Position numbers and translations under genes: made by a program. The notes under the pieces are model-generated. The model was not told the origin of the DNA and did not search any database. It saw only the letters and a program-made list of their open reading frames with translations. Positions 31,764 to 33,629 of a DNA stretch of 64,000 bases are shown here, piece by piece. Position 1 is the stretch's first letter. Every line of letters begins with the position of its first letter. The stretch comes from Methylacidimicrobium fagopyrum (GTDB lineage: Bacteria > Verrucomicrobiota > Verrucomicrobiia > Limisphaerales > UBA11358): NCBI GenBank assembly GCA_026225255.1, contig JAMFSJ010000033.1, positions 186,001-250,000 on the forward strand, read 5' to 3'.

Positions 31764-31871
31764 TTACTTCTTTTTCGCGGCAGGCTTCTTGGCAGCCGGT
31801 TTTTTGGCGGCTGATTTTTTGGCGACGACCTTGGCTTTGACTGCGGGTTTCTTAGATGGTTTGGCTCCCAT
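31764..31871 (-). CDS. Tiny lysine/alanine-rich protein (35 aa), paralogue 1
   Basis: A 35-codon gene on the minus strand encoding MGAKPSKKPAVKAKV followed by VAKKSAAKKPAAKKPAAKKK. The composition is close to the C-terminal tail of histone H1 (PAAKK repeats), so a nucleic-acid-binding role is plausible. The gene has a matching promoter, a conserved leader hairpin and a strong terminator, which shows it is genuine. A paralogue of 40 codons lies 1.6 kb away with the same architecture. No Shine-Dalgarno sequence precedes the ATG, only an A/T-rich stretch (AAATAAATAAAAAGTT). Function is unknown. Confidence 0.82.
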   Translation of the reverse strand: MGAKPSKKPAVKAKVVAKKSAAKKPAAKKPAAKKK

Positions 31872-31908
31872 AACTTTTTATTTATTTAGTTTTTGTTTGC
31901 GAGTTTAA

Positions 31909-31975
31909 CTCACCTACGGAATGACAGTTTCTCCGAAGGTGAGGTCATCATGCTCGCCTCGTTCGCTATTGTAAA
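31909..31975 (-). promoter_or_regulatory. Promoter and 5'-leader hairpin of small basic gene 1
   Basis: On the minus strand: TTTACA (31975-31970), 17-nt spacer, CATGAT (31952-31947), 7 nt, then a hairpin CCTTCGG / 13-nt loop AGAAACTGTCATT / CCGTAGG (31939-31913), extended outward by 4 further pairs (stem CTCACCT with AGGTGAG, 31943-31909). The transcript should begin at the foot of this hairpin, leaving a ~70-nt leader. The layout is repeated at 33661-33723. Confidence 0.7.
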
Positions 31976-32062
31976 CACTGGAGATTAATATTTTCCAATT
32001 TTATTGAGCGCCGATGTGGCAATTGACAATCACGCTTGGAATGACAATTTGTGGGGACGCAT

Positions 32063-32605
32063 ATGAAAAAAATATTACTGATCTTAAGTTTTGTGTCGCT
32101 GTTGGTGAACGGCGTTTTCGCGGCGGACAATGCCGACGCTAAATCCGATTTGTCCGCGACCAAGACGGAATCGTATCAGATCCGAAATAAAAAATTCGGC
32201 GACTTGCTGCGTCCTGAAAATGCCAACGGCGCCGAAGGCACGCGCATCGTGTTGTATCCGGCCGAGCTGTGGAAATGTATGACGTGGAAATTGCAACCGG
32301 CCGGTGAATCCACCTTTCACGTGCAAAATCATTTCACTTCCAAAACGTTCGTTGTGAAATCTGGTGCGGGCGACAACGGCGTGATTCAAATTAAACAGGC
32401 GCATGAAGCGAGCGAACGCCCGCGCTGGCTTTTCACCAAACAAGCGGATGGTTCGTATGAAATCAGTGATGCAAAATCCGGCGAGGCGTTGACCGCTGTG
32501 GCCGAGGCGAGCGGTTCGGCCCGCGTCATCGCGACGCCGTGGTCGGGCAACGAAAATCAAAAATGGTCGTTGGAGAAAATTGATCCCGCCACGCTGACGA
32601 TGTGA
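32063..32605 (+). CDS. Secreted ricin-B-lectin-like protein
   Basis: A small exported protein of 180 residues: signal KKILLILSFVSLLVNGVFAAD, then a beta-trefoil-like region with the ricin-B repeat feel (IRNKKFGDLLRPENANG...TWKLQP, FVVKSGAGDNGVIQIKQA, WLFTKQADGSYEI, ENQKWSLEKID). The three W/QxW-like repeats are degenerate, so carbohydrate binding is inferred. The ATG at 32063 is preceded by GGGGAC, and a GTG at 32051 would spoil the signal peptide. It stands alone. Confidence 0.65.
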   Translation: MKKILLILSFVSLLVNGVFAADNADAKSDLSATKTESYQIRNKKFGDLLRPENANGAEGTRIVLYPAELWKCMTWKLQPAGESTFHVQNHFTSKTFVVKSGAGDNGVIQIKQAHEASERPRWLFTKQADGSYEISDAKSGEALTAVAEASGSARVIATPWSGNENQKWSLEKIDPATLTM

Positions 32606-32677
32606 TTTTGGTAGGGCTGGCTCACCGGATCGCGGTGCAACAAATAAGCAAAACGCTTAGGCGATCGCGTTCGATTC

Positions 32678-32728
32678 CGTCGCCTGACGCTGCGCTCGGC
32701 GACGGGGAACATCGCAGCGCGATGTCCC
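32678..32728. repeat. Two adjacent small palindromes
   Basis: CGTCGCC (32678-32684) pairs with GGCGACG (32698-32704), and directly after it GGGAACATCGC (32705-32715) pairs with GCGATGTCCC (32719-32728) with one bulge. They lie between the convergent lectin-like and TMEM175 genes and may act as a bidirectional end-of-transcript structure or a dispersed element. Confidence 0.6.
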
Positions 32729-32741
32729 TGCCGTGCGTAAT

Positions 32742-33332
32742 TCACTCTTTTTCCTGCTCCGTCAGCACGCGTTCGATGCGCCGATCCGGCACGAGCCACA
32801 TGAGTGCGACGAAGACATACAAACCAACCGCGATCCAAGTATTGACGAACGCGAACGCGATGCCGGCCACGTAAAGCACGGGTGAAATTTTTCCTTTGCA
32901 ATCTTTGCCCACCGCCGTCTTGAGCAAGGAGTTGGGGCCTTGTTGCGCGATGATCCGGTTTTGCAAAATAAAATAACTCACCGCGGCCATCAACAGCACG
33001 CCGCCGTAAACCGCTACCGGCGTGGGTGCGAGATGATTTTCACCGACCCAAGCCGTCGTGAATGGAAACAGCGACAACCAAAACAACGAATGCAAATTCG
33101 CCCACAAGATGCCGCCATTGACTTTCTTAGTGGATTGAAACATGTGGTGATGATTGTTCCAATAAATCCCAACATAGACGAAGCTCAAAACGTAACTCAA
33201 AAATACGGGTAGTAATTCTTTCAGCGCCGCCAACCCGTTCCCATGTTCCGGCACTTTTAATTCTAGCACCATGATCGTGATGATGATGGCGATGACGCCG
33301 TCGCTGAATGCTTCCAACCGATTTTTTTCCAT
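32742..33332 (-). CDS. TMEM175-family (DUF1211) potassium channel protein
   Basis: A 196-residue integral membrane protein with the defining N-terminal motif RLEAFSDGVIAIIITIMVLE, in which the FSD residues line the ion-selectivity region, followed by five more helices (e.g. LLPVFLSYVLSFVYVGIYW, LHSLFWLSLFPFTTAWVG). Bacterial TMEM175 proteins form tetrameric K+ leak channels. A TTGCGA-17-TAAAGT promoter (33367-33339 on the minus strand) ends about 6 nt before the ATG, implying a leaderless transcript. Confidence 0.92.
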   Translation of the reverse strand: MEKNRLEAFSDGVIAIIITIMVLELKVPEHGNGLAALKELLPVFLSYVLSFVYVGIYWNNHHHMFQSTKKVNGGILWANLHSLFWLSLFPFTTAWVGENHLAPTPVAVYGGVLLMAAVSYFILQNRIIAQQGPNSLLKTAVGKDCKGKISPVLYVAGIAFAFVNTWIAVGLYVFVALMWLVPDRRIERVLTEQEKE

Positions 33333-33453
33333 GCGCTGACTTTACCGAAGCGGGCCGGGCGTCGCAATGGCCGGTTCATGAGGTGGAGAAGTTTCCGAGC
33401 CGATGAAAATCCGTCGCGCTTGATTTATAAAAGCGGGCCGGATAAGTGGGCGT

Positions 33454-33491
33454 AAAAAAAGACAGCCAGGGTTTTAAATCCTCGCTGTCTG
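33454..33491 (-). terminator. Rho-independent terminator of small basic gene 2
   Basis: Minus-strand stem AGACAGC (33490-33484) with GCTGTCT (33466-33460) plus weaker inner pairs (AGG/CCT region), followed by T residues through 33454. It begins about 17 nt after the stop codon. Confidence 0.85.
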
Positions 33492-33506
33492 AAAAAAGTA
33501 GTTTGT

Positions 33507-33629
33507 TTACTTTTTCTTGGCGGCAGACTTGGCCGCGATGGCGGCTTTTTTCTTTTGATCTGCGCTGTTCGTTTGAGAGGCCTTCTGACCACTTTTCTTC
33601 TGTGTAGCTTTTGGTGATTTGTCGCCCAT
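33507..33629 (-). CDS. Tiny lysine/alanine-rich protein (40 aa), paralogue 2
   Basis: A 40-codon gene on the minus strand encoding MGDKSPKATQKKSGQKASQT followed by NSADQKKKAAIAAKSAAKKK. The MGDKSPK start and highly basic tail resemble a class of very small basic proteins I recall from several bacterial phyla. This is memory only, not a search result. It shares the MG-x-K start and AAKKK end with the 35-aa protein at 31764, and has the same promoter, leader hairpin and terminator arrangement. There is no Shine-Dalgarno sequence (GAATAAAATAAAAAATT before the ATG). A longer minus-strand frame (33376-33786) overlaps out of phase and is rejected. Confidence 0.82.
   Translation of the reverse strand: MGDKSPKATQKKSGQKASQTNSADQKKKAAIAAKSAAKKK

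Follow-up and report, generated by a model that had tools for sequence, protein, structure and literature searches.

The closest precedent found for a conserved leader dedicated to uncharacterised short open reading frames (ORFs) is the cyanobacterial Downstream-peptide RNA motif (RF01704), described as a structured, conserved 5' untranslated region (5'UTR) before ORFs that typically span 17-100 codons, belong to no known family and change synonymously (PMC2864571). The present analysis concerns two tiny genes with their own conserved leader in Methylacidimicrobium fagopyrum, a 40-codon gene (type A, the MGDKSPK family) and a 35-codon gene (type B), carried in a 64,000-nucleotide (nt) stretch of contig JAMFSJ010000033.1 (assembly GCA_026225255.1, positions 186,001 to 250,000; hereafter the window). 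RF01704 differs in being listed as a candidate riboswitch akin to the glnA motif (PMC2864571), whereas the tiny-gene leader consists of one short hairpin, has no Rfam match in the window stretch and precedes strongly basic products. At E values up to 5, window positions 31400-34200 gave four Rfam matches, all far below gathering, and five relatives' stretches gave none at gathering; a riboswitch of known class was rejected on this ground.

Chlamydia and Verrucomicrobiota are grouped in PVC (Planctomycetes, Verrucomicrobia and Chlamydiae). Within this wider group, the closest case found of RNA control over a small basic protein is chlamydial Hc1 (HctA), which is controlled around its start codon by the trans-acting small RNA IhtA (PMC4355289), whereas the tiny genes carry a hairpin in cis. 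No Pfam model of Hc1 or another histone family passed for the window proteins, a model-based result rather than a direct comparison with HctA. Among ribosomal proteins, bTHX and bS22 (Sra) are likewise tiny and basic, but show no sequence match to the tiny proteins by family models or, for type A, by PDB sequences. A further parallel is offered by cyanobacterial Rbp genes, stress-type genes for RNA-binding proteins with conserved leaders (PMC9333190); unlike them, the tiny genes have another leader and encode no RNA recognition motif (RRM), an RRM gene being instead a frequent divergent neighbour.

The reading favoured here, with a probability of roughly 0.4, is that the products are small disordered polycations that would act on RNA or ribosomes under stress and be controlled through the hairpin. 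In Pfam and NCBIfam, no family passes for either window protein or for any of 16 type-A proteins, and within the open-licence PubMed Central literature no paper was found for MGDKSPK, nor anything on these genes under small lysine-rich proteins, Verrucomicrobia RNA motifs or cold-shock sets. Because the type-A family is presumably already in databases as unnamed hypothetical proteins, the novelty would lie in the leader, in type B and in the module formed with the neighbouring genes. The features of the two units are as follows.

33507..33629, minus strand: 40-codon gene (type A, MGDKSPK family), pI about 10.5, charge about +9.5
33661..33687, minus strand: leader hairpin of the 40-codon gene (CCUUCGG-AGAAACUUCCAUG-CCGCAGG), from leader alignments A2 and A6
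33718..33723, minus strand: -35 element TTTACA of the 40-codon gene, read from the sequence; TTTAC invariant in relatives
33695..33700, minus strand: weak -10 element CATCCT of the 40-codon gene, read from the sequence; relatives commonly have CACGAT or CATGAT
33452..33490, minus strand: putative terminator hairpin and T run of the 40-codon gene, fold z -4.2 against shuffled sequence
31764..31871, minus strand: 35-codon gene (type B, K/A/P repeats), pI about 11.1, charge about +13.5
31909..31943, minus strand: leader hairpin of the 35-codon gene, longer at its base, from folding and leader comparison
31970..31975, minus strand: -35 element TTTACA of the 35-codon gene, from consensus scan and pattern search
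31947..31952, minus strand: -10 element CATGAT of the 35-codon gene, from consensus scan and pattern search
31710..31750, minus strand: putative terminator hairpin and T run of the 35-codon gene (GCUGUUUCUCC..GGAGAAACAGC), fold z -5.0 against shuffled sequence

The leader and the transcription unit

Both ORFs stand in the ORF list with the coordinates, lengths and ends that an initial annotation of this DNA had given them, reading MGAKPSKK...AAKKK for the 35-codon and MGDKSPKA...AAKKK for the 40-codon gene. In each, ATGGG lies a few bases 3' of an A-rich stretch, and no Shine-Dalgarno sequence lies close to either start, as had been proposed. The regions upstream of the two genes are alike (73% over 49 nt, 81% over 32 nt), so the paralogy that the annotation saw between them is supported by common regulatory parts, whereas the proteins share little besides lysine/alanine richness. 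Across relatives, the leader follows one scheme, a stem CCUNCGG/CCGNAGG, the loop GAAACUNNCAU, GAGUCAA and an A-rich start without a Shine-Dalgarno sequence, with the loop and the following GAGUCAA conserved in sequence.

The pairing itself was assessed in 117 leaders (alignment A6; MAFFT, from 119 minus the mis-registered L055 and L221), where CCUNCGGR faces NCCGNAGG in eight pairs and 81.8% of cells hold a standard pair. Both sides have changed at seven of the eight pairs, in 67 cells against 26.6 in shuffles, with 24 further pair types against 18.0 and a covariation score of 0.206 against 0.105; among 500 shuffles, none reached the real paired percentage, cells, pair types or score and one reached the number of pairs, counts that shared ancestry inflates and that are affected by the choice of A6 leaders through a pattern in which much of the inner stem is fixed, so that bias is smaller in the outer pairs and in pair 11-24. 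Slid controls scored at most 0.118 and had at most 39 cells. At the innermost pair position, which is non-standard in 65 of the 117 leaders, C occurs only with G (7/7) and U only with A or G (4/4). On these comparative grounds, with pairing kept through changes on both sides, the leader hairpin is a true RNA element conserved at the RNA level; in energy folding, the 35-codon leader forms it alone (z -1.9). In the smaller set A2 of 30 leaders only three of seven pairs covary, a number that 38 of 500 shuffles equalled, as against 0 of 500 for the score.

Two other functions for the leader were considered. An upstream ORF in the loop (GGAG...ATG) is ruled out by one-base gaps that break the frame and by ATT, ATA or CTG replacing ATG in some leaders, and use of the hairpin as a Shine-Dalgarno standby site is not backed, as GGAGA varies to GGGGA, GGCGA and GGUGA.

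The promoter is conserved as well. The annotation's TTTACA element and 17-nt spacer are present in both window units, and TTTAC is invariant in all 30 aligned upstream regions, two from the window and 28 from 27 relatives' loci (alignments A1 and A2, the latter of their leaders; the type-A search fetched 30 loci, of which L022 and L026 were excluded with no leader seen, and six further matches had no locus). The -10 element claimed for the 40-codon gene, by contrast, is weak and went unlisted by a consensus scan, which found two promoter-like sites against 2.1 in shuffles and listed the 35-codon promoter only; the promoters therefore rest on conservation and not on the scan. A search of 40 genomes for the exact pattern TTTACAAT-N13-16-CAYGAT gave 21 places, against one for the reversed control pattern; by coordinates, 16 of the 21 stand in front of tiny genes. 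At three of the other five, reading frames of 369-495 codons begin within 20 nt, so that those places look like coding sequence. The promoter is near-private to the tiny-gene family.

At the 3' end, the intrinsic terminators of the annotation are recognisable as hairpins with a T run and low fold z-scores; a scan for terminator-like elements listed neither. The palindrome GTCTCTCCTGA...TCAGGAGAGAC is present in five of 59 genomes, at five places that all belong to tiny genes, which rules out a general terminator repeat. In 114 units filtered by pattern, the best 3' stem has a median of 12 pairs against 7 in shuffled sequence, and stems of at least 7 pairs occur in 107 units but also in 78 shuffled ones; at least 4 T within 8 nt of the stem follow in only 58 of the 107. 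The terminator claim thus looks good for both window units and many relatives, not all.

Conserved ends of this kind would suit dual-function transcripts, which would regulate as RNAs, with their 5' hairpin and terminator arms, and encode a peptide of secondary importance: both RNA ends are conserved, the exact palindrome keeps to tiny genes, and in the 35-codon unit pairing is possible between the leader motif GGAGAAAC and the terminator arm GUUUCUCC. Such a role is improbable, given clear selection on the type-A protein and a mean leader-terminator pairing of 6.48 of 8 within loci against 6.40 between them (15 of 500 permutations as high; shuffled tails 5.78). Leader-terminator pairing is accordingly weak as a mechanism, pairing within loci being hardly above that between them. 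A short lysine-codon-rich ORF followed by a terminator-like hairpin also recalls a lysine-rich leader peptide attenuating a downstream gene. This is very improbable, since the units share no downstream gene: in the window, what follows the 35-codon unit is a convergent gene (30623-31696, plus strand), the genes after the units differ between relatives, and type A conserves its amino-acid sequence, not lysines alone.

The protein family and the reach of the leader

Type A has a match in 34 of the 59 genomes searched, the window's own counted, and 16 of its proteins give the consensus MGDKSPKANQKKSGQKQAK...KKK. Among 59 distinct 41-codon genes, the proportion of nonsynonymous differences (pN) lies below that of synonymous differences (pS) in 1709 of 1711 pairs, with a median ratio of nonsynonymous to synonymous rates (dN/dS) of about 0.26; among 18 genes of 40 codons it does so in 152 of 153 pairs, with dN/dS about 0.27. 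Selection therefore acts on the protein, and on this codon evidence it is purifying; the dN/dS figures cover type A, type-B genes being short and differing by indels. The annotation's view of the genes as real, easily missed by gene callers and each forming a minimal unit with its own conserved promoter, leader and terminator hairpin is supported, and both the orthologues and the synonymous bias on which it had staked its case are found for the 40-codon family.

A scan of named genomes confirmed at least 123 MGDKSPK loci, of which the best 80 were kept. By their record titles these 80 are mostly Verrucomicrobiota (subdivision 3, Pedosphaera/Limisphaerales, Opitutaceae, Akkermansiaceae and others), and eight are titled Proteobacteria, Chloroflexota, Abditibacterium, Phycisphaerales, Deltaproteobacteria or Rhodothermaceae; nearly all named loci come from metagenome-assembled genomes, whose titles may be wrong. 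The family is patchy, a model search finding it in 13 of 288 genomes sampled from the phylum, own genome counted. Spread of the tiny genes by plasmids is not backed by a plasmid collection in which tblastn found no match to the tiny proteins, BLAST masking such low-complexity queries.

Type-B counterparts in relatives have 20-32 codons (MATKSKAKKPAAKK; examples are MATKSKAKKPAAKKPAAKKKVAAKKK and MAKKAKVKSAAKKKPAAKKKKK) and stand behind a leader shared with type A. By position, leader and composition, the 35-codon gene of the window is type B despite its MG start, and over all relatives the proteins of both types span 20-47 amino acids (aa). One relative (L078, on G024 C96) carries two type-A units in tandem, 1.2 kb apart; the whole unit of promoter, leader and gene can therefore duplicate.

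Several points speak for proteins that compact DNA in the manner of histone-H1 tails, a Verrucomicrobiota counterpart of Hc1/Hc2 restrained at the mRNA level: lysine makes up 40-55% of eight examples counted, KKPAAKK repeats occur in many, the 35-aa protein weakly resembles HC2 (PF07382), and HctA of Chlamydia is a small basic DNA-binding protein under RNA control by IhtA (PMC4355289). The HC2 resemblance reaches 12.3 bits against a cut-off of 40 and concerns type B only, the 40-aa type-A protein having no match, and the neighbouring genes in relatives serve RNA and translation. As a family assignment, the histone-H1-like label of the annotation is not upheld, and as a function it is unlikely, if well worth weighing.

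A first model of the leader (R1), holding no start codon or coding sequence, matched in 35 of the first 59 genomes, and the sequence behind its leaders revealed the type-B genes. A second (R2), a covariance model of the leader alone built from 83 leaders and run over 194 genomes of the order, matched in 61, own genome counted; 68 of its 70 places, two own-genome places omitted, directly precede a tiny ORF (18-60 codons, at least 20% K+R, start within 45 nt), as against 1311 of 20000 random places by this rule. All 68 ORFs begin like type A or type B, and the two exceptions are G474, at a contig end, and contig 34 of G057 (32 bits), which lacks such an ORF. Some of the genomes searched had supplied leaders to R2, so that the search is not an independent discovery; the model, holding no coding sequence, could have picked up a leader before other genes. 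Outside the own genome, five of six places in the phylum sample precede MGDKSPK or MGDRSPK genes, as do four of six in the order of G332, five of whose six genomes repeat the phylum sample. The position of the leader upstream of one gene family is thus consistent, and because of the 68 of 70 places in the order it looks dedicated to tiny K/R-rich genes.

A wide regulon is not indicated, no other gene having been found behind the leader, although a leader diverged beyond the model would escape. Weak R1 matches of 21-29 bits (L079, L081, L082 and L083) have no such ORF and were taken as chance, four further R1 rows at 20.9-22.6 bits were not inspected, and in the phylum and G332-order searches the tiny ORF is likewise absent at L174 (28.4 bits) and L278 (26.3 bits). 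Among the best 80 named loci, 54 have a leader-model match 40-75 nt before the start (E up to 0.1) and 26 do not; the latter include L112, without upstream sequence, and L138, with a leader-like stretch by eye.

Proteins of 20-41 aa composed largely of lysine and alanine are easily written off as chance ORFs. The covarying leader, the near-private promoter and selection on the protein show that at least the class of 40-41 codons is real, and the leader marks the class of 20-35 codons, which is presumably hard to recognise from protein sequence alone. With the leader model, a means of detecting such genes throughout Verrucomicrobiota is at hand, and the role of a 20-residue polycation in a bacterium becomes directly testable in a cultured member.

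Gene neighbourhoods and a proposed role

Both types occur together in 21 stretches, always on the same strand, with type B first in 19 of them, by 0.7-4.8 kb, and the reverse order in the window and L134. An RRM RNA-binding protein gene, recognised by Pfam families, neighbours type B in 12 of 19 distinct loci, divergently in 11 (starts 265-421 nt apart) and downstream in L077, and a DEAD-box helicase gene is divergent in three more; the 21 stretches and the 19 loci each include L071, added by hand as the script pattern misses its type-B gene. IF-1, a DnaJ protein, TMEM175 and a 74-aa protein without Pfam match also recur nearby in relatives, a TMEM175 gene in 13 and a DnaJ-type gene in 27 of 97 stretches, some genomes being represented twice. 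Two of these genes are present in the window, each identified by Pfam and neighbour comparison.

32742..33332, minus strand: TMEM175 channel gene, between the two units
36092..36895, minus strand: DnaJ-type co-chaperone gene

IF-1 and DEAD helicases are cold-induced. Together with RRM proteins, they make the relatives' neighbours look like a cold-shock-like set. For cyanobacteria, RRM (Rbp) genes are reported to carry conserved 5'UTR boxes for cold response, and Synechocystis requires the RRM protein Rbp1 for growth in the cold, its glycine-rich tail being dispensable (PMC9333190). The annotation had offered nucleoid, RNA-binding and ribosome-associated roles side by side; sequence alone does not narrow this choice, and the relatives' neighbours lean towards RNA or ribosomes.

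The same neighbours, IF-1 and the RNA helicase above all, would also suit small accessory ribosomal proteins like bTHX or bS22/Sra, lodged in grooves of the ribosomal RNA (rRNA); size, charge and basic end resemble bTHX, and dedicated leaders are common in ribosomal protein genes. Neither protein matches a ribosomal family in Pfam or NCBIfam, however, type A, the type so compared, matches no PDB chain, and the patchy distribution over the phylum also speaks against such a role. Moreover, there is no sign of rRNA mimicry, the core motif (up to three mismatches) occurring only at the two leaders of a genome that is 86% complete and whose rRNA gene content is unchecked. A ribosomal protein is rather unlikely on this balance.

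The favoured reading of stress-acting polycations would work as follows: the two co-regulated genes would yield polycationic proteins, disordered or formed of a single helix, whose targets would be RNA or ribosomal particles and whose role, in the cold or a similar stress, would most likely be that of RNA chaperones or accessory factors; transcription of each gene would start at the common promoter type, with the dedicated hairpin at the 5' end of the mRNA; and the hairpin would set output both by shielding that end and through a bound factor controlling translation, either the peptide itself, in feedback, or the RRM protein whose gene is the neighbour in relatives. Structure prediction gives the 40-aa protein a single helix and no domain (mean pLDDT 68.5, pTM 0.28, low confidence), and together with the two charges this would fit proteins that bind nucleic acid or ribosomes loosely. 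That the leader was found with this family and with nothing else points to feedback or to a partner of its own, and less to a ligand switch in wide use; a hairpin at the predicted 5' end would fit both protection of the mRNA and control over a start codon with no Shine-Dalgarno sequence.

Several observations weigh against this reading. The hairpin that the annotation had proposed for both genes, conserved as it is across the 117 leaders, is missing from the minimum-energy fold of the 40-codon leader, which prefers another fold (z 0.1). All eight MGDKSPK loci titled as other phyla lack the leader, which is therefore not needed for the protein's basic role. Four of the 19 type-B loci have neither RRM nor DEAD helicase gene (L069, L076, L134 and L141, the last with only 38 nt of upstream sequence), and the window is a further case. 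The own genome's two RRM genes lie on other contigs, with no tiny lysine-rich gene seen in the stretches read around them, so that the RRM link is statistical, not strict; and a generic cold-shock protein query found no match in the 97 stretches.

A bolder form of the reading, possible but tentative, is that the leader represents a cis-acting RNA hairpin of a new class, reserved for polycationic micro-proteins. Either these peptides or a partner RRM protein would read the hairpin in the peptides' own mRNAs and so close a feedback loop, and the whole would belong to a hitherto undescribed module of Verrucomicrobiota for cold or stress that would comprise tiny basic proteins, RRM, IF-1, DEAD helicase and DnaJ.

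The RRM genes carry a long, very conserved 5'UTR of their own (CATGGTRAATCTTCAAGTGAACTTGGTTCAGTGATGATTT...), seen in L064 upstream of 788 (minus strand), in L067 upstream of 3497, in L148 upstream of 979 (minus strand) and in L277 upstream of the RRM start on the minus strand. It had no Rfam match at gathering in five stretches scanned and is probably a second undescribed leader of cold-shock type.

The recurrent 74-aa protein (QGQVW...YIRIV; L068:1867-2091) has tblastn matches in 33 of the 97 stretches, some genomes again twice, close behind tiny genes. Between the two units of the window, 32051-32605 encodes a protein with a ricin-type beta-trefoil lectin domain (Pfam), which has no relative among 17 stretches clustered with it, and 33945-34745, divergent from the 40-codon gene, encodes a 266-aa protein without Pfam match.

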